From the IMG/VR virus record IMGVR_UViG_3300048130_000049, positions 1 to 31,224 of that record: DNA of 31,224 nt; one strand, 5' to 3'. A program made the translations under genes and the position numbers. Source of the DNA: a virus. The notes beneath the pieces were generated by a model. That model saw nothing but the letters and a program-made list of their open reading frames with translations, did not search any database and was not told where the DNA came from. Positions 1-27,700 of this stretch are shown here, piece after piece (position 1 is the stretch's first letter; every line of letters begins with the position of its first letter).

Positions 1-420
1 CCCCCAATATTGGCGGGAGTAGAATTTGATGTTTGGGAGTTACGTTCAGGAGGCGCAAGGACTTATCCTAGAGTGCAATACGAGAAAGGAAAGTTTCAAG
101 GCCCGTGTAGGGCGGTAGTAGATATCAGTTGGAGTACGACTCAGCCATTTGGTTTAGCAGCAGCGGAGAAGCCAGAACCTGAAACTATTTCAATTACGAA
201 TCCTCTATTTACTTTAAACATCCCCCCAACACTACATGGGCCTGTTAACTTTACAGTTAGCACGGGGTCTAATGATGAGACGTGGGAACCGACTAATGCA
301 ATATATACTAAAGGAGCGACGAACGTCACGAGTTGGGAGCCTCATATAGCTTCCTCTGAAGTAAAACCTTTTAGAGGAGGTTGGTTAATGCAGACAACTA
401 CTGTCTACCCACCGTCATGA
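1..420 (+). CDS. Putative virion protein, 5' end outside window
   Basis: The reading frame is open from base 1, so the gene is probably cut by the window edge; the first possible internal start is a TTG at base 10. About 139 codons are visible and end at TGA 418-420. The protein is rich in Thr, Ser, Pro and aromatic residues with short alternating hydrophobic stretches (for example NPLFTLNIPP, GPVNFTVSTG), which suggests beta structure and no membrane segment. I recognise no family. The stop overlaps the ATG of the next gene (ATGA), so the two are probably translationally coupled. Its place before a putative virion protein and two glycosyltransferases suggests a tail or surface part, but this is inference from context. 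Confidence 0.6.
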   Translation, partial: PPILAGVEFDVWELRSGGARTYPRVQYEKGKFQGPCRAVVDISWSTTQPFGLAAAEKPEPETISITNPLFTLNIPPTLHGPVNFTVSTGSNDETWEPTNAIYTKGATNVTSWEPHIASSEVKPFRGGWLMQTTTVYPPS

Positions 421-1433
421 GTTCTGAAGATAATAGCTTGGATATAGAGGCACCTATCTCTTATGAGATGCCTGACGAAGGTTTGAGTGACTATACAGTG
501 TCTCTTACGGACGCGGACGATACCCCTTTTGGTTCAGTTGTCCCAGAACCTCCAGCCTATAAGCCGTTTCCATTCGCTTTACGGCCCGCCCCTGATGGCA
601 AGATCCATATATATTTTGGTGTTCTGGTTCATCAGATCAACCAGATGACTTTTAACACGGATGGGTTAGTTTCTCAAACTGGCATAACTAACCCCCAAAC
701 TATAATTCCGTCTCCTCTTTCTTCTGGTGAGAATCGATACAAGTTTTACACACTAGACTGGCGTGGTGATGTGTATTTGTATTGGGAGACTAACAGCTCA
801 GGTGCTGTTACTTTGTGTGATATTAGGGGGCCATCTACACCCACTCAGCAAAGTTTACCTAATATTAGTGGTGGGAAGTTCCATGTTAAACTCGGAAAAG
901 TAGATAATAATGATGTCTCAACTCTAGACCAAAACATATCCACTGACGTTTACTGGTTAACAGCTTTTGCCATACAAGAAGATTCTTCTACTTCTACTTC
1001 TTCATCTTCATCTTCGTCTGGCTCTGACAAATCTACCGCTATTGTGCCTATGGACTGGCATGACAAAGGATACGGTGCGCTGTTCACGATGGAGTCTAAT
1101 GAGGTTCTCTTTGAATTTGTGATGAGAGACATACCATTAGAAGGAGCCAATACAGTAACCCGAATCGACGACAGGTTCTTAGCGGTGTGTGAGCCGGACT
1201 CTATGACTGTTACAGGAATATCAGGCGACAGAGCCGGATCAGTCGGTGCAGTGGTCGAGAAGAACAACGTGATTCTTTCAGCATGGCCCCTATCTTTTTT
1301 ACGGCCTTCTAAAGTAACTTTGAAACTGACCGGAACCCGTAAAGGCTTCAGAGGATTTGATATGCCGGAGCGTAGCAAAGAGCAGTTCATCGCTAACGAG
1401 AGGTTTATTAACTCAGCTTATCCTAGAAAATAA
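417..1433 (+). CDS. Putative virion/surface protein with Ser-rich spacer
   Basis: A 338-residue protein if it begins at ATG 417, which overlaps the upstream stop (ATGA). A TTG at 381 would add 12 residues but lacks support. It is beta-rich, with motifs such as WRGDVYLYWE near residue 120, and no signal peptide or membrane segment. Around residues 188-203 is a low-complexity Ser/Thr spacer ending GSDK that splits the protein into two parts. This looks like a flexible, exposed linker and echoes the Ser-Thr repeat protein just downstream. The stop overlaps the next start (TAATG). I recognise no Pfam-type family with certainty; a tail fibre, baseplate or decoration role is inferred from the neighbours. 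The opposite strand also carries a long open frame here, which I treat as a shadow. Confidence 0.7.
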   Translation: MSSEDNSLDIEAPISYEMPDEGLSDYTVSLTDADDTPFGSVVPEPPAYKPFPFALRPAPDGKIHIYFGVLVHQINQMTFNTDGLVSQTGITNPQTIIPSPLSSGENRYKFYTLDWRGDVYLYWETNSSGAVTLCDIRGPSTPTQQSLPNISGGKFHVKLGKVDNNDVSTLDQNISTDVYWLTAFAIQEDSSTSTSSSSSSSGSDKSTAIVPMDWHDKGYGALFTMESNEVLFEFVMRDIPLEGANTVTRIDDRFLAVCEPDSMTVTGISGDRAGSVGAVVEKNNVILSAWPLSFLRPSKVTLKLTGTRKGFRGFDMPERSKEQFIANERFINSAYPRK

Positions 1434-1687
1434 TGTCTGAATCTAATTCATCGGATTCTGATTCTGCTTCAGACTCAGCTTCTACTTCTACTTCTACTTC
1501 TACTTCTACTTCTACTTCTACTTCTACTTCTACTTCTACTTCTACTTCTACTTCTACTTCTACTTCTACTTCTACTTCTACTTCTACTTCTACTTCTACT
1601 TCAGACTCTGCTTCTGCTTCTAGCTCCAGCTCTTCAGGATCAGCAAAAAGTTCATCCTCAGTATCGGAAGGAGATGGAAACCCATGA
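1433..1687 (+). CDS. Ser-Thr dipeptide repeat protein
   Basis: An 84-residue protein almost wholly made of Ser, Thr, Asp and Ala. Residues 17-56 are 20 uninterrupted Ser-Thr pairs, preceded by an SDSDSASDSAS-like acidic segment and followed by a poly-Ser stretch and the tail SVSEGDGNP. There is no hydrophobic core, so it is probably disordered. The start overlaps the upstream stop (TAATG) and its stop overlaps the start of the glycosyltransferase gene (ATGA), so it sits in one translationally coupled unit between a virion-type gene and a glycosyltransferase. Dense Ser/Thr tracts are classic O-glycosylation acceptors, but modification here is inference. Alternatively it is a linker that reaches the upstream protein by readthrough or frameshift. 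The frame is maintained, and coupling on both sides supports a real gene. Confidence 0.65.
   Translation: MSESNSSDSDSASDSASTSTSTSTSTSTSTSTSTSTSTSTSTSTSTSTSTSTSTSTSDSASASSSSSSGSAKSSSSVSEGDGNP
1481..1600 (+). repeat. Hexanucleotide tandem repeat (TCTACT)x20
   Basis: Twenty perfect copies of the 6-base unit TCTACT run without interruption, encoding (Ser-Thr)20. Because the unit is two codons, gain or loss of copies by slippage changes tract length without shifting frame. Perfect identity at the DNA level, rather than mixed Ser and Thr codons, points to recent slippage expansion. Confidence 0.97.
1668..1673 (+). promoter_or_regulatory. Shine-Dalgarno site for the GT25-like gene
   Basis: AAGGAG lies 10 bases upstream of ATG 1684. 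It is notable because almost no other gene in the window has a recognisable ribosome binding site, so it suggests that this glycosyltransferase may be initiated independently as well as by coupling. Confidence 0.55.
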
Positions 1688-2355
1688 AGAACCTAACTGA
1701 CTGGTTTGACCGCGTTTACGTGATTAACTGCGCCCATAGACCGGATCGTCTCAAAGAGACGAAGAAGCATCTTGAAGAGACTAGAATGGCGGACAACGAC
1801 AAGGTCCACTATTATCCTGCTATTATAGGCGACTGGACAACCTGTCCGGCTGACTGGGGATCTGGTAGGGGCGCGTGGGGTTGTTTACGTTCGCATCAAA
1901 GGATTCTGGAAGATGTCCTCCATACTAGAGATGACCGCCACAACATGTCTTTGAACAACGTATTGGTGTTAGAAGACGACGTGATATTCAAAGACGAGTC
2001 GTTAGAGAAGCTCAATGAGTTCATGGAAGACGTGCCGGATGATTGGGGGCAGATCTATTTAGGCGGTCAGCATCGCCGCGACACTACATCTACTGGATTG
2101 TCTAATGTAATTGTCGGTAATTCTGTTAATAGAACACATGCCTACGCCGTTAACCAGCCTACTTTCACGTCGTTTTACCGCCATATATCGTATGCGACGG
2201 ACTATCGAAATACTAACAAGCATATCGACCACCAGCTTGAGTTAGCTCACCGACGTAAGGATTGGCCAGTTTACTGCCCGAAAGAGTGGGTCGCGGGCCA
2301 ACGAGCTGGTTCGTCGAATATTAACGGCAAGACACACGGAATAAATTTTTGGTAG
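1684..2355 (+). CDS. Glycosyltransferase family 25-like protein
   Basis: A 223-residue protein with the hallmarks of GT25 (LPS beta-1,4-galactosyltransferase/LgtB-like) enzymes. These are VINCAHRPDR near residues 13-22 (nucleotide-sugar binding start), GAWGCLRSH near 63-71, and the acidic metal-binding motif VLEDDV at 95-100. Such enzymes transfer a sugar from a nucleotide donor in the cytoplasm; no signal peptide or membrane segment is present. The start at 1684 is backed by AAGGAG ten bases upstream and by ATGA overlap with the Ser-Thr repeat gene. The acceptor cannot be read from sequence. Possible targets are the adjacent Ser/Thr-rich proteins, another virion protein, or host surface glycan. 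Length is near the family's usual 230-270 residues and no motif looks broken. Confidence 0.85.
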   Translation: MKNLTDWFDRVYVINCAHRPDRLKETKKHLEETRMADNDKVHYYPAIIGDWTTCPADWGSGRGAWGCLRSHQRILEDVLHTRDDRHNMSLNNVLVLEDDVIFKDESLEKLNEFMEDVPDDWGQIYLGGQHRRDTTSTGLSNVIVGNSVNRTHAYAVNQPTFTSFYRHISYATDYRNTNKHIDHQLELAHRRKDWPVYCPKEWVAGQRAGSSNINGKTHGINFW

Positions 2356-2407
2356 TGAAAATGAAGAGTGGACAAATGATAGCCACTTTTGTAAATATAT
2401 TTATACG

Positions 2408-3076
2408 ATGAGACTTATTGTTACATTCGCTATTGGGGGTATGCCTTGGGTAGACCCGTCCGTCGCCTCCATGCGAGAGTATGCGAGTAAAGTGGGCGCT
2501 GACTTTCACGAGGTGAAGTGGTTTCCCAACGAGGCGAGCAAGCCATATAGCGGCAAACCCGTATGGGCGTTCGTTGATTTTTTGAAGAGATTTCGAGAGC
2601 AGGATTATTACAAGGAAGTGTTGGTGGTTGATTGCGACGTTTTAATATTACCGAACTGCCCCGATCTGTTTGAAATAGAAGGGGGCCTTGTGTGCGCGCT
2701 GGACCAAGCATGGCCTACGAAAGACGATAGATATAAGACGTGGGTAGCTAAATACTACCCTGACAGCACGGAGAACTCCTCTGGTATCGACGACCCTTAC
2801 TTCAACGCAGGGGTATTATTGTTCCGTTTGGAGGCTCTCCGCTCCCTTAACTTTGACCCACCATACCCAGACGAGATGGGGTATGATCAAGATTTTTTGA
2901 ATATGCGGACGGCGGAGGCTGCTATAGATATTACTTGGATTGGTGAGGAATATAATCAACGTAACGTGAATGACCGCCAATGGACTCTCGCCAACAACCA
3001 TATCTTACATCTCGTTGGTGGCGGTAAGGAGCGACTGATGGATTACGCTGATTTCTTAGGAATATGGAAAAGTTAG
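2408..3076 (+). CDS. GT8-like glycosyltransferase
   Basis: A 222-residue protein with a GT-A fold signature. It begins with a hydrophobic strand, has a DxD metal/nucleotide-sugar motif in VLVVDCDVLIL (D75, D77), then YFNAGVLLFR at 131-140 and DQDFLN at 160-165, an order typical of GT8 and related transferases. A final His-containing strand (NHILHLVGGGK) fits the third metal ligand region of GT8. There is no membrane segment, so a cytoplasmic enzyme is expected. It follows the GT25-like gene after a 52-base AT-rich gap, and the two probably act on the same glycan or protein. The start is the only reasonable ATG and has no Shine-Dalgarno site. The donor sugar and acceptor are unknown. Confidence 0.8.
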   Translation: MRLIVTFAIGGMPWVDPSVASMREYASKVGADFHEVKWFPNEASKPYSGKPVWAFVDFLKRFREQDYYKEVLVVDCDVLILPNCPDLFEIEGGLVCALDQAWPTKDDRYKTWVAKYYPDSTENSSGIDDPYFNAGVLLFRLEALRSLNFDPPYPDEMGYDQDFLNMRTAEAAIDITWIGEEYNQRNVNDRQWTLANNHILHLVGGGKERLMDYADFLGIWKS

Positions 3077-21728: not shown

Positions 21729-24700
21729 ATGACTGAATTCCAAGATTACTCAGATTGGGTAAAGCAAAGACCTGTCTCTACAGATAGCACCCAAAACAAG
21801 GTAGACTACTCAAACTACCTCCGTAAAACCCACCTCGACTCCGACGACTATTCTCTAGAGGTCGAGAACTCAATCCAGAACGAGCTTTACGGTAGTTTAG
21901 TTTCGTCAGGAGACATTGAAGAAGGTGATATAGATGCGTTTAGTTCTCTCACTACTCCTCAAGCGATATCTTCAGAGGCTAAAATGGATATCATCCAGTC
22001 TCGCATCAACCCGAAAAGCTCTAGCTGGCAGGCGATCACTGCTTATAAGACTGCGGAAGCTGATGGCCTACCACCGGAAGAAGTCCAAAGGTTAAAAACC
22101 AACGCAGGGTTTATCGCTGATCGGGAGTATGACTCCATGAAGAGGCAGATGGTTCGCAACGGCGAGCTAGCCTTCGCTGCTTTTACTAACCTTGACGGAA
22201 GCCGTGAGATTGTAGCGGGCGACGCGGCTATTGGATCTAACCTCAGTGATGCTTTGAAAGCTTCTAAGATGGGAGAGGTCACTTTATCCGACGCGCTTGC
22301 TGCTCAACAGCAGATGACTCCTGCATTTGGAACTAAGGTTCCCGCCTTCAAGGCTTCTCGTTATAATCAAGCTTCAGCTATTATGTCTGAGTTGATTAGG
22401 GGTGATGAGAAAACCAACACCCTCTTACAAGCACACGCAGAACTTCGTGCTGGCGAAGAGGATGAAGGCTTCATGGACCAAGCAGCCAATGTAGTTAATG
22501 CGTTTGGTGATGCGTTTGTTGGTATCTTCTCTTCTGAGAAACGGGAGCAGAACTCTGCGATGTTTAGAGCGAAGGATGTGACACGCGATGAAGCAGTCGC
22601 AGACATGATGCTCCGTGTCAACAGCTCAAACGCTTTGCCGGAAGGTGAAGAGTTTACTGCTCAAGAGATTGGGGCAGCTTTTGACCACGCGGTCCTCGAA
22701 CGTGCGACAGCACAAAACATGTTTGACCAGTATACTGGTGAAGACGCTGGACGTAACCTCCGCATCTCTTCGACGGGTATGCCAATCATGGCGAGCGACG
22801 TTCTCGCAAACGAAGATCTCTTCAACGATACTGTTAAAGGATCTACTCTTGATGATAACCAGAAAGATTTTCTTAGGCAGACCCGCACGTCAGTCCTTAC
22901 TGACCGCTTTGAGGATTACTCTGAGATGTTTAAGCGTAGTGCTGTTGACGACCAGTGGAGCCAAGCATTAATCGAAGGAGCCAACCAAGGTAAGAAGAAT
23001 CATGAGATCTTGAATGACTTCTTGAAGGACGAAGACAACTACAGCCTCGTTACTCAACGATCTAAAGGGATCGCGTGGTCCCTTGTGAACTCTATCGGGA
23101 CTTTGGCAGCAGCCATTCCAGCAGCAGCAGGTAACAAGATGGCTACTGACTACTTAGCTGACGTTGCTCAGAAGAATTCTGACAGGCAGCAGGTCGCTCG
23201 TCTGTTTGGGCAAGAGTATGGATACGCTGGCGAGATTGGTGAGACTATCGCCCCTATGGTCACGGATATCTCGGCTACTGCTTTCCTTTCAGCCGGAACT
23301 TTCGGAACAGGAGGAGCTGCTTACGTTGCAGCGAAGTCCGGTTCCGTTGCAGTGGCTAAGACAGTCACTAAATCTTACGTCAACCACGTAGTTAAGAGTG
23401 TTCCAAGGTCTGTATTCAGAATCAAAGGAGCTAAGTATCAAGGTAAACTCTCTGACGCGATTAACATCGCAGTTAAAGAAGGCCACGGTGACCTGACGAT
23501 GGATGTCTTGAAAACATTCAACAGCGAAATCGTCCGTAAAGCAGGTATTTCAAGTGCTGCTGCTATTCCGGCGGCAACTCGATCAAGTGCTGCTACCTAT
23601 GGGGCGATCACCAATGCTCTTAGGTCTGATACAGATATGTCAGACGAAGAGATTCGCGACAAAGCTTTAGGAGCAGGCATGATGAGTGGAGCCATCACCG
23701 GAATTATTACTGGTGGATTCTCAGCACTCGGCAGGGGCGGTCTTGATGACGCCCTGCTTCGCGGGATGACTTTCCGCGATATGACTTCGGTGGTCGGCAA
23801 GATGTCGAACGTCACGAACAAAACTAATCTTGATGCAAATGTTAAAGCGGCTCTTAAAAAGAGCATTGCAGAGTCTGCTAAGAAAGCGGGCATGGCTTCA
23901 GCGGCTATAACAAAGAGGTCTAGACGAAATATATCCAGAGCGGCAGATGTTGTTAAAGCAATAGGGCGTGACGCTGGTAACGAAGCTGTCGAAGAAGGTC
24001 TAGACGAGTTTGTAAACTCGTTCGTCGAAGATGCCGCATTGGATCAGGACACTCCAATGTTTGAAAGATTGGGCCAGACGTTCCACGCAGCTGTGTTAGG
24101 TGGAGCGTTGGGAGCAGGTGCGCCTGCTGTCCAGCGTTTTGGTAGGTCTTTGCGTCAGAAGAGAGGAGTCAACTTATCACAGGTTGATAGGATGGTTTCT
24201 GACGTTGCCCAGAGTGCGTCGAAAAACCTAAAGGATAATAATAGCCCCGTTTCAGCGGCTGTACTTGAAAGGATTTTCAGGACTCCTATGCGTGAGATGG
24301 TAGCTGCGCCTGAAGTTACAGAAGCTGCGCCTGAAGTTACAGAAGCTGCGCCTGAAGTTACAGAAGCTGCGCCTGAAGTTACAGAAGCTGCGCCTGAAGT
24401 TACAGAAGCTGCGCCTGAAGTTACAGAAGCTGCACCCGAAGTTACAGAAGCTGCACCCGAAGTTACAGAAGCTGCACCCGAAGTTACAGAAGCTGCACCT
24501 GAAGTGGAAGGTGATAGTAAGTTTGTAGAAGAAACACTAAGCGATCCTGATCAAACAAAGAGAGAGAGCAACAATGTTATCAACGAGCGAGCTGGAGAAA
24601 ACTCAATAGTTCTAGAAGAACTTGATGGTGATTTTTATGCGGACGAAGTTGTTGATCAACCCTCGATAGAAGAAAGAATCGCTCAGGAAGGTCAACAACA

Positions 24701-27700
24701 GCGAGAGGCTGAGTTGACAAGGGTGGAGGCTCAGGAACTTAGAAAAATTGAAGCTGCCTTAGCTAAGGCAGAGTCAGCTCAAATCGAAGCCGAAGCCGAA
24801 GCGGCTCAGGCAACTCCTGAAGAGAAACCTGCTAAGGAGCAAGAAGCTAAGGAAGCAGCTAGAAATACAGCGATAGCTAAGAAAGCTGCTAAGAAAGCTG
24901 CTAAGAAAGCTGCTAAGAAAGCTGCTAAGAAAGCTGCTAAGAAAGCTGCTAAGAAGACAACTAAGAAAGCTGCTAAGAAAATTAAGTTACAGAACCGGAA
25001 GGTTCGGAAGGCTAGAGATCCATTCTACACCACTCCCGAATCTAAGTCTTCAGTAGACTTCTACAATGAGAAAGCTTTCTTGTCGAAGAACATCAAAACA
25101 GAAGATGTTACCGATGAAGATGGTAAGATCACTCTGTCTACAAATGAACGGGAAGTAGCTGATCAAGTTCTCGATCTCGTTGTCCGAGGTTTTCCAGTGT
25201 CCTTTGCTACTCAATCTACGTATGGCGTTGACCTTTCAAACCATAACAGGCGCGACGTATCCGAGGCTCTAGCTAGAAAAATCTACGACCGCTTCCCCGT
25301 CCTTGAACCTACTGATAAGGCAAAAGCTTCGCTTGAGACATTCTCTACTAAGAGTAAAAAGGTGATGCACTATAATCCTAAAACAGGAAAGAGATCATCA
25401 TTGGCTGTTAAAGGGTTACTAACTAGAGACGGAGCTGGGGTCTTCAACAACGATCCTGTTACTATGTTGGAGATGTTGTCGAGGAACATACCCATCACTA
25501 TACCAAAAGAGTATAGAGATAGTGTATTGTTGAACCCTTCTTTCAGAGATGGATTCGATGTAAAGACAGGGAAACTACATACGATTGTAGCTCCCCACAA
25601 AAAATACCCATCTCAAAATGTTTCTCTACTAAAAGAGATCCGATACACGGAGCTTGCGTACAACTTTGATAGGGCTAGAAGGCTGTCTCAAATCAAGTTT
25701 ATCAGACCGGATGAAAAGTTTATCCTACCTTTAGGTGTTTCTGTAACCGACAGACAAACAGGGAAACCGATCACCGCGTCTGATAAGACTCAGCAGAAGT
25801 TTGCAGACGCCATAAGTCCTGTCGCAGCTTTCGTTAAAAAAGTTACACCACCGTCAAAAGATGCCAAAGCTATGGATAGGGCGGTAAAAACAATTAGAGG
25901 ACTACTTTACTCTTCTAAGAGATCTTCTTTTGATCGCCTTGATATCGAGACCAACTTTAGTATCCCGTCAGTAGTTAATGAGGCTGAAAACGAATACGAG
26001 CTTCTACTTAACTTATTCAAGATACGTCAGGATATTTTAACCGATAATGATAAACAATCTAAAGGTAAGAAAATCGAAGATCTAACTCCCGCCCAAGTAA
26101 GTCGTGGGGTAAAGGCTCTGCTTAGTAGAGTGGACTTCGATGAAAGTGTTAAAAAAGGAGATCGCATAGAGGCACTGTCCGACATGTTAGCTGGGTTTGG
26201 TCTTAAAGACTTCAACGCCTATGCTCCAGAGCAGAACGTCAAAAACTTTCTAAAGAATGATGTGGTTAACAACCAAGCATTCATAAAGACAGGCTCGATG
26301 CCTGACTTCATGACGCTCATCCGCCAATCGATTGATAGATACATTGGCCAAAGCATCAGCCGAGATAGTGCTAGGGTCGCGAGTCAAGCTGTTTCTTTTG
26401 AAGAGCTAACAGAAGCAGGCTATGATCCATCGACTGGATCACTTGATGGATTAGATGCTATACTTGGCTCGGAAGAACCTGAACTTCTGTCTGTCGATTC
26501 AGATGCTATGTCAGAAGTTTTCAAAGACACAGTGGAGGCAGCGGTCACTGAGGTTGAAGTTAATCCAGAAGTCCGGCAGCAATTAGAACAGCTCTACATA
26601 GACATTGGCAACAACAGTAGCCAAGAAGCTATAGACGAAGTCCCGAATTTGCCTACAGAGTTTCTTATTGATTCGATTGCTCATAAGATTAGACAAGCTG
26701 GTTATGACAGCCCGACGGCTCTCGACGCACTAGAATTCAAAAGGCAGATTGAACAGAGCTTACTACCCTCTGCGGAAAAGCTCAAAGATCTCTTAGAAAC
26801 AGTTTATTACCCTGACGCTAAAGTTCTTAATACAGGTAAGCTGATTACTAAGGGCGATGTCACTAGCAATACTATTGCTTTCGCCAACTTCCGTAGAAGA
26901 GAAGACGCTCGCATAAGTGGTGTTCCAAGTGATGTATCTCTTTTCGATTTCGTAACGTCTAGAGAAGAGAAACAGAAACTCACAGATAGAGGTAAGATCA
27001 TAGTCGCGAAAAGAGACATAGCGAAGGAAGACGAATTTGTCCGCCTTGCTCTTGCTCTTCCTGAAAAAGCACAGGAGCTTATTGCTAAGTCGGCTCCTGC
27101 AAAAGCAGTCCGAAAAGCTTTCCTAGAGGGAAAGACTGTTCCGGTAGATGGCCTAACTAAAGAAGCTATTGACCTGATTAAAGGTAACAAGAAGTTCTAC
27201 AAGTTAAGTCCTGAAGACCAGACAGTAGTTCGTAATCTCCGGTCCAAGCTTATCGACCCTGACGCCAGTAAAGCCGAAAAGAAAAATGTCTCGTCTAGAA
27301 TTGAGACGGAGGTTGCTAAAGGGGTGGATGAAGCTGAGAGGAAGGACAATGAGAGAAAGATCTATGGAACTACCTTAGATAAACTTAGTCCTGAAGATAG
27401 GGAGTCGCTCATTGAAATCGTTGAGGATCTTGAAAGCACTACCGATCCTCTAGAAAGGGCGGAGCTAAGTGATGAAGCTATGATGATTGTTGGTCGGGCT
27501 AACAACCACGCTTCACAGAACTCAGCGTCACAGGCGGCGACTCCGATGGAGCGCCAGTTGATGCGAGCAGATAACCTAGCGGAGATCGAAAGACTTGGGC
27601 TTGAGCATAATAGTCCTGAGACAGTTATCGCTGCACTCAAGACTATATCCGCGGAGTCAGATAACCCATCACATAAGTTAGTAGCTGACCTTCTTTTAGA

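Follow-up and report, generated by a model that had tools for sequence, protein, structure and literature searches.

The 31,224-base virus record IMGVR_UViG_3300048130_000049, analyzed here over its whole length as the window, encodes a small protein that consists mostly of serine and threonine and lies between the gene for a tail-type protein and the genes for two predicted glycosyltransferases, which raises the question of what these enzymes modify. The initial annotation of the locus had inferred that the transferases act on the neighboring Ser/Thr protein. Having compared this region with related loci, we consider it likely, judging from gene content and conservation, that the locus is a module for the O-glycosylation of phage tails, equipped with its own dedicated acceptor. 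The conserved element, however, is not the Ser-Thr repeat that had drawn attention but a short peptide tag, GSxKS...SVSE, next to any Ser-rich tract. Of the two enzymes that had been pictured as acting together, the one of the GT25 family is indeed coupled to the acceptor, whereas the GT8-like gene is merely one of several interchangeable enzymes that occupy the same slot.

A peptide tag and a Ser-rich tract coupled to a GT25 gene

Three of the four overlapping or adjacent genes of the locus, which are on the plus strand (as are all the P-numbered genes discussed here), are those for the tail-type protein P0001 (417-1433), the Ser/Thr protein P0002 (1433-1687; 84 amino acids (aa)), which is the predicted glycan acceptor, and the GT25 glycosyltransferase P0003 (1684-2355). 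The open reading frames (ORFs) confirm the tight linkage noticed earlier: the TAA of P0001 overlaps the ATG of P0002 (TAATG, 1431-1435), and the TGA of P0002 overlaps the ATG of P0003 (ATGA, 1684-1687). P0002 contains 43 Ser and 20 Thr residues, and a recount yielded exactly the 20 consecutive Ser-Thr pairs that had been reported (1481-1600). These pairs are encoded by a 24-copy, in-frame array of the hexanucleotide CTTCTA (1479-1622), the copy number being uncertain in a metagenome assembly, and replication slippage of this array accounts for their perfection. The relatives do not share these pairs; the feature that they have kept is the tag GS[AS]K[ST]x[SG]S[VIL]SE next to a stretch rich in Ser, the tag being represented in P0002 by GSAKSSSSVSEG (1637-1672). 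In the comparison of 31 loci, the Gly and the Lys of the tag are invariant, the first Ser is found in 30 loci (Ala in one), the Ser after the Lys in 30 (Thr in one), the Ser in position 8 in all 31, Val, Ile or Leu in the next position in 29, the following Ser in 30 and the terminal Glu in 28. Over these loci, Ser residues at fixed positions of the tag are encoded by codons of both the TCN and the AGY families, so the tag is maintained at the protein level; in the codon comparison, L004 is out of register owing to two extra Ser and L094 is not matched by the pattern, and both carry the tag.

The proteins that bear the tag are otherwise highly diverse. The tag is located at the N-terminus (M[ST]YGSAKSSGS..), at the C-terminus or internally, in many cases at the protein end next to the Ser tract, and L068 has retained an ORF of just 30 aa that contains hardly anything besides the tag. 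Between many relatives, the N-terminal parts of the ORFs preceding the GT25 gene are wholly different, with a Ser-rich stretch in each; for instance, the GT8-like proteins of the window and of L004 (on the same contig as L040) are 99.5% identical, and their tag proteins are unrelated. A scan seeded with P0003 identified 23 viral loci, one of which (L023) begins inside the GT25 gene and 22 of which possess an upstream ORF, several of these being truncated by the contig end. In the 22 rows formed by the window and 21 of the loci found with P0003, the upstream ORF ends in KS[SFY]SSVSE or a variant thereof in 18, and its end is Gly-Ser-rich in L011, L012, L014 and L016, with an internal tag in L011, L014 and L016. 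A four-base overlap (ATGA or GTGA) joins the tag ORF to the start of the GT25 gene in 15 of the 22 rows, and in the other seven the ORF ends shortly before that start; in L010, which falls outside the rule applied to these rows, the tag is internal and the ORF stops 22 nucleotides (nt) before the GT25 gene.

Two further scans, one of which relied on neither the GT25 sequence nor the tag, point in the same direction. The tag pattern alone, run against 2.9 million viral contigs, retrieved 22 stretches, of which 21 are on contigs that carry this GT25: 19 on contigs already known to encode it, and two new ones, L062 and L068, where the GT25 gene directly follows a 30-aa ORF composed of the tag and mostly Ser. 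For the stretch in L056, the contig stops before the GT25 position and encodes the same protein as L011. A more restrictive pattern, designed for tags at the N-terminus, retrieved two stretches, and the contigs of both were already known as members. The scan with the P0001 domain, made without the use of GT25 or tag, detected 38 viral loci, in 36 of which the tag is present in the next ORF (degenerate, GSNKE, in L235 and weak in L237); L217 has no further sequence, and in L222 the following ORF is truncated and shows no tag in the part present. In 29 of the P0001-domain loci, the tag is followed by 700 nt or more, and 26 of these have a GT25; the start of one is visible in L233, with 385 nt available. 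Two of the exceptions encode other candidate enzymes: a Stealth_CR2-like protein in L236 (26.6 bits against a cut-off of 39.4) and, in L241, a protein with Glyco_transf_7C and pyruvyl-transferase matches above cut-off, followed by an O-FucT-like protein below cut-off. The alignment behind the GT25 profile included L223, L224, L232 and L234, all four of which pass the PF01755 cut-off on their own.

The association with Ser/Thr tracts can be gauged against a background. The GT25 sequences from the scanned viral and genome contigs, after removal of exact duplicates, were grouped by bit score, and a tract was scored when 12 of 20 residues (strict) or 10 of 20 (looser) were Ser or Thr. At 300 bits and above, a strict tract lies directly upstream of the GT25 gene in 23 of 23 cases, compared with 1 of 337 when the same rule is applied before the other genes of the scanned loci (28 of 337 at 10 of 20). 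At the level of gene neighborhoods, this comparison strongly supports the original suggestion that the transferases would act on the adjacent Ser/Thr protein. Between 200 and 300 bits, the tract is present in 7 of 25 cases under the strict criterion and in 14 of 25 under the looser one. The search for Ser/Thr ORFs beside GT25 and GT8 genes that the initial annotation had proposed hence bears out the coupling for the close GT25 relatives, whereas the GT8 gene varies. L099-L101 and L103 are tagless, but the ORF before the GT25 gene has a Ser/Thr tail at its end (..TSSATSTSYSNTT or the like); in L104-L107 the Ser/Thr tracts are internal. As a separate observation, L099, L101 and L103, which represent another phage group, share a distinct, conserved C-terminal tail (..SATSTSYSNTT or similar) adjoining the GT25 gene, possibly a second kind of tag.

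Enzymes, tail-type protein and genomic setting

The assignment of P0003 to the GT25 family, tentative in the initial annotation, now stands above the curated threshold of PF01755 (Glyco_transf_25), with 29.6 bits against 24 and an E-value of 7.7e-7. The acidic motif EDD at residues 97-99 (E97, D98, D99) is invariant over 43 GT25 sequences. The AlphaFold2 (AF2) model of P0003 has a mean predicted local distance difference test score (pLDDT) of 95.1, and among solved structures those of mimivirus R655 and human COLGALT1 come closest to it; in the VIA structure comparison, COLGALT1 scores Z 22.0 over 198 residues, with a root mean square deviation of 2.6, followed by R655 (18.9), bacterial beta-1,4-galactosyltransferases (16.8) and the PBCV-1 enzyme 2p6w (10.8). 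In an Opitutae bin, a 617-aa frame (L150:5795-7648) combines a GT25-like start with a tblastn GT25 match near its end and is apparently a tandem GT25 protein.

The position after the GT25 gene is occupied by a variable set of enzymes. In the window it holds P0004 (2408-3076), the gene that had been described as GT8-like and placed after the GT25 gene, on both counts aptly: the match to PF01501 (Glyco_transf_8) reaches 21.7 bits (E 1.7e-4), below the curated cut-off of 24.3, so that the protein can be called no more than GT8-like, and a six-row alignment of P0004 had no match among PDB sequences. Relatives of P0004 are present in eight loci, and the slot is of the GT8-like type in the window, L004, L006, L009, L010, L013 and L017/L018. 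Other contents of the slot are a second GT25 (L003, with L023 similar), a Gly_transf_sug protein of the GT32 type (L005 and L011, with the same protein in L012), a Caps_synth protein (L022), a Methyltransf_24 protein (L007 and L020), a Methyltransf_24 protein along with a GT29 sialyltransferase match (L024) or a UDP-galactopyranose mutase (L017), and in L002 it is empty. The L021 slot protein has a Gly_transf_sug match below cut-off only, and for those of L008 and L015 and the second one of L010 no Pfam family was matched. The same diversity extends to more distant members: to L232 and L230, which encode, respectively, a GT8/Gly_transf_sug protein after the GT25 and GT2 and Methyltransf_24 proteins, to L068, with a second GT25-like protein just under the cut-off and a methyltransferase, and to L234 (7598-8926), a tag locus in which the GT25 is fused to a sulfotransferase-like domain. 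The far boundary of the slot is marked by the conserved gene P0006 (3147-4112), which is present also in L045 and L046, two loci that lack the module.

P0001 consists of a variable N-terminal part, a Ser-rich spacer (978-1019) and a conserved C-terminal domain (GSDKSTAIVP...INSAYP, 1020-1430) whose first predicted strand lies within TAIVP. In its AF2 model (mean pLDDT 69.5), the spacer is unordered, with pLDDT below 50 over residues 175-204, and the C-terminal domain is mostly confident. Gly, Ser and Lys of the GSDK at the start of this domain are invariant in 35 aligned sequences. The best BFVD matches of the model are uncharacterized phage proteins (E 3e-14 and 5e-12), and lower matches include a minor tail protein (4e-5), a tail protein and a tail-fiber-like protein, all of these, the better ones included, with TM-scores of at most 0.35 on the query. 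The C-terminal domain in the window's copy had no PHROG match and no match among PDB sequences better than E 1.5, and a Foldseek search of the PDB with the P0001 model gave none at E 0.001 or better (best, 0.06). Residues 202-210 of P0001 (GSDKSTAIV) and the tag (GSAKSSSSV) have the pattern GSxKS...V in common, and each borders a Ser tract; the likeness may stem from a shared origin or a shared binding partner.

The module resides among virion genes: a PHROG scan around it in L034, L043 and L020 matched three of seven proteins to tail or tail-fiber families, the other four being unmatched, which links the transferase genes to virion genes. Upstream of P0001, and overlapping it by ATGA at 417-420, lies P0005 (1-420), a gene truncated by the contig end so that the C-terminal part is present; complete homologs of 405-742 aa are found in ten compared loci, upstream of P0001 in the eight of the compared loci that have P0001, and are retained in L045 and L046. 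In the latter two, the flanking genes are present and P0001, the tag gene and the GT25 gene are jointly absent. Across six near-complete relatives, 12 retained ORFs have a tract in which 10 or more of 20 residues are Ser; ten of these are the tag gene or P0001, the pair that immediately precedes the GT25 gene, which is more than chance would give. Two Ser-tract genes located away from the module, G001:C1:40254-41477 and G006:C1:24767-25321, are tagless. When 13 records were searched with the A1 profile, built for the family's own GT25, the eight largest gave a single match apiece, always at this place (a count that leaves aside the second, more distant GT25 in the G001 slot), and there was no match in three, namely G009 and G010, which are without the module, and G013, where the contig starts shortly before P0006. 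Farther along, the window contains a reading frame of at least 3,165 aa that runs off the contig end (21729-31223) and includes a 21-base repeat array coding for EVTEAAP (24302-24505) and a Lys-Ala repeat (24876-24980).

The host of these phages is probably a member of the Verrucomicrobiota. Members of the family were found in metagenome-assembled genomes labeled Verrucomicrobiales, Opitutae and Acidobacteriales, and a survey of two phyla found two genomes with the P0001 domain among 387 and two among 396, each count including the survey's starting genome. The two finds beyond the starting genomes are L261, described below, and L263, which shows no tag and no Ser tract, whichever strand is read. 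Given that bins can hold stray phage contigs and that the broad surveys found few members, the assignment is not proven. As for isolated phages, neither P0006 nor the terminase was matched at E 1e-5 in the 50,697 phage records searched, nor was the P0001 domain at E 0.01. GT25 matches in phage records came from four huge uncultured phages, at just 25-28% identity, and the polymerase matched 1,774 records, all below 60% and, among the 15 matches listed, 28% at most.

Interpretation of the module and its alternatives

Tail glycosylation is the best reading because of the co-occurrence of the genes, the tail context, the conservation of the tag at the protein level and the exchange of enzymes, and the arrangement of the genes is best read as a semi-constant first transferase combined with variable finishing enzymes. 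The acceptors would be P0002 and its counterparts, in each of which the tag adjoins a tract that is rich in Ser and prone to disorder, in some cases along with an additional domain, and the Ser spacer of P0001, which borders GSDKST, is probably a second acceptor. The GT25, whose gene overlaps that of the acceptor at its start, would place the first sugar on hydroxyls of the tract with the tag as a guide, and the enzymes of the next slot, here the GT8-like one, would extend or cap this sugar and be swapped between phages, so that closely related particles could display different surface glycans on their tail appendages. The sequences themselves show the order of the genes, the conservation of the tag, the setting among tail genes, the families to which the enzymes belong, their exchange and the co-occurrence. 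From these we infer that sugar is transferred, that it goes onto Ser/Thr on the virion and under the guidance of the tag, and that the phage benefits through shielding or altered adsorption or recognition.

Several observations weigh against this interpretation. The presence of P0002 on the particle and the transfer chemistry are predictions from genes; solved GT25 structures are few, and a common fold does not reveal the acceptor. The tag-linked GT25s are not a single clade, with at least four label changes, gains or losses, on a tree of 43 GT25s. The tract is lacking even at 10 of 20 in 11 of the 25 GT25s of the 200-300-bit band, a strict tract is found in only 1 of 32 between 120 and 200 bits, and between 60 and 120 bits there are 0 of 32 under the strict criterion and 3 of 32 under the looser one, against a background of 28 of 337. 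Transferases without Ser/Thr proteins, named in the initial annotation as the observation that would speak against its inference, thus do exist among distant GT25s, and these lie outside the present subfamily; likewise, no Ser/Thr neighbor was found for bacterial chromosomal GT25s, e.g. L152-L154 in Verrucomicrobium. Closer to the module, L102 keeps the GT25 (50% identity) without tract or tag, and L235 has the P0001 domain but no recognized glycan enzyme and no Ser tract at 10 of 20. In the locus L261, which comes from the Verrucomicrobiota genome survey, the ORF (L261:1-1467, minus strand, cut at 489 aa) that comes after a distant P0001-like domain and its Ser tract is tagless and has a weak, below-cut-off match to the MptE-like family (PF01973), which was once linked to flagellin glycosylation factors. 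Finally, the loci include near-copies (L227/L228, L225/L226, L239/L240 and L211/L212), so the counts are not those of independent events.

A broader version of the glycosylation hypothesis, to which we give slightly less than an even chance, is that the tag is a portable signal, such that any protein with GSxKS...SVSE beside a hydroxyl-rich tract would be modified, with several enzyme classes recruited as readers. The recruited readers would be the non-monophyletic GT25s, the Stealth-like protein and the GT7C-type enzyme. If this is the case, these phages would possess a general tail O-glycosylation system with swappable acceptors and swappable glycans.

The strongest competitor, although in our judgment an unlikely one, is that the tag serves as a docking peptide for the attachment of proteins to the tail, with Ser tracts that are no more than flexible linkers; the transferases, in this view, would be cargo that alters host surface glycans and so masks receptors during infection. 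The location of the tag at one protein end next to the Ser tract in many tag proteins is what would be expected of an anchor, the similar motif of P0001 is predicted to lead into the first strand of a folded domain, and lipopolysaccharide synthesis commonly involves enzymes of the GT25, GT8 and GT32 types. If the transferases were cargo, however, one would expect neither a GT25 behind the tag at almost every locus (26 of 29) nor a start codon that overlaps the tag gene (15 of 22 rows); in L045 and L046, moreover, P0001, the tag gene and the GT25 gene are absent together. Docking and glycosylation may be true simultaneously, with the tag serving both as signal and as anchor.

Far less probable is a role of the GT25 as a collagen galactosyltransferase that acts on collagen-like fibers or on hydroxylated lysine, possibly the tag lysine, which is invariant in all 31 compared loci. 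The closest solved folds are those of collagen-modifying enzymes, but (GXY)7 repeats are present in only 3 of 39 loci, the window not among them, and in 1 of 6 near-complete genomes, a scarcity on which we reject a collagen-like acceptor as the general reading; furthermore, no match to 2OG-FeII_Oxy_3 (PF13640) was found in nine records, a search that covered this one hydroxylase family within the records. Least probable of all is the tag as mere DNA homology for recombination between tail genes, for although the proteins upstream of the tag wholly differ while tag and GT25 are similar, as in the window and L004, the tag codons change and the residues stay, switches between Ser codon families included, and the tag lies at either end of the protein or inside it.

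Comparison with known glycosylation systems

The predicted tail glycosylation module resembles, in different respects, several systems that have been characterized. P0003 is a member of the same GT25 family as COLGALT1 and mimivirus R655, with the GT-A fold and the acidic motif, and COLGALT1 acts on protein; in contrast to the collagen systems, most loci described here are devoid of collagen-like repeats, and no hydroxylase was found with the one family searched. The PBCV-1 enzyme 2p6w, whose PDB title describes it as a viral enzyme that glycosylates the major capsid protein, is a much weaker structural match and has a capsid acceptor, and PBCV-1 is a eukaryotic virus. In mimivirus, according to the excerpted text of the source, R699, not R655, was shown to be the active collagen glucosyltransferase (PMC9546862).

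In layout, the closest parallel is with the serine-rich adhesins, for which the excerpts of PMC5207161 and PMC6973325 describe sequential glycosylation by clustered transferases with a conserved first step. As in the serine-rich repeat protein (SRRP)/Fap1 loci of Gram-positive bacteria, so far as these excerpts describe them, a Ser-rich acceptor is clustered with a conserved first transferase and variable further ones, but here the first enzyme is a GT25 instead of a GtfA-type transferase, the acceptor is tagged and the neighbors are phage tail genes. GtfA (TIGR02918) was found in none of ten phage records, the window's included, which may be incomplete, and a GtfA-type serine-rich repeat system was rejected on this account. 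The adhesin comparison made in the initial annotation accordingly holds for the layout, a Ser-rich acceptor beside variable transferases, and the likeness ends there.

Virion glycosylation has been described for the mycobacteriophages Che8, Corndog and Myrna (Freeman et al. 2023, as cited in PMC12363180, PMC12619734 and PMC12691614); in the excerpts of these articles, the glycosylated proteins are capsid and tail-tube proteins (PMC12363180, PMC12619734), with glycans at the C-termini of the capsid and tail-tube subunits (PMC12619734), and natural capsid glycosylation is mentioned (PMC12691614). The present phages are similar to those mycobacteriophages in encoding transferases predicted from their genes to modify their own structural proteins, but, compared with the capsid and tail-tube acceptors in the excerpted accounts, they would employ dedicated Ser-rich acceptors among the tail genes, a tag and a variable enzyme slot. 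No account of a phage Ser-rich or GT25 glycosylation system was found in the open-license literature, searched by titles and abstract openings, and the findings suggest that these phages glycosylate their own tails in a manner not yet described. If this is so, acceptor, signal and enzymes are kept together and variable, so that the surface chemistry could be altered without altering the tail itself, and the pairs of a short tag and an enzyme could be put to use for attaching defined sugars to proteins in the bacterial cytoplasm. The phage virion glycosylation that we found in print concerns mycobacteriophages, and the module described here would be a second design, in uncultured phages.

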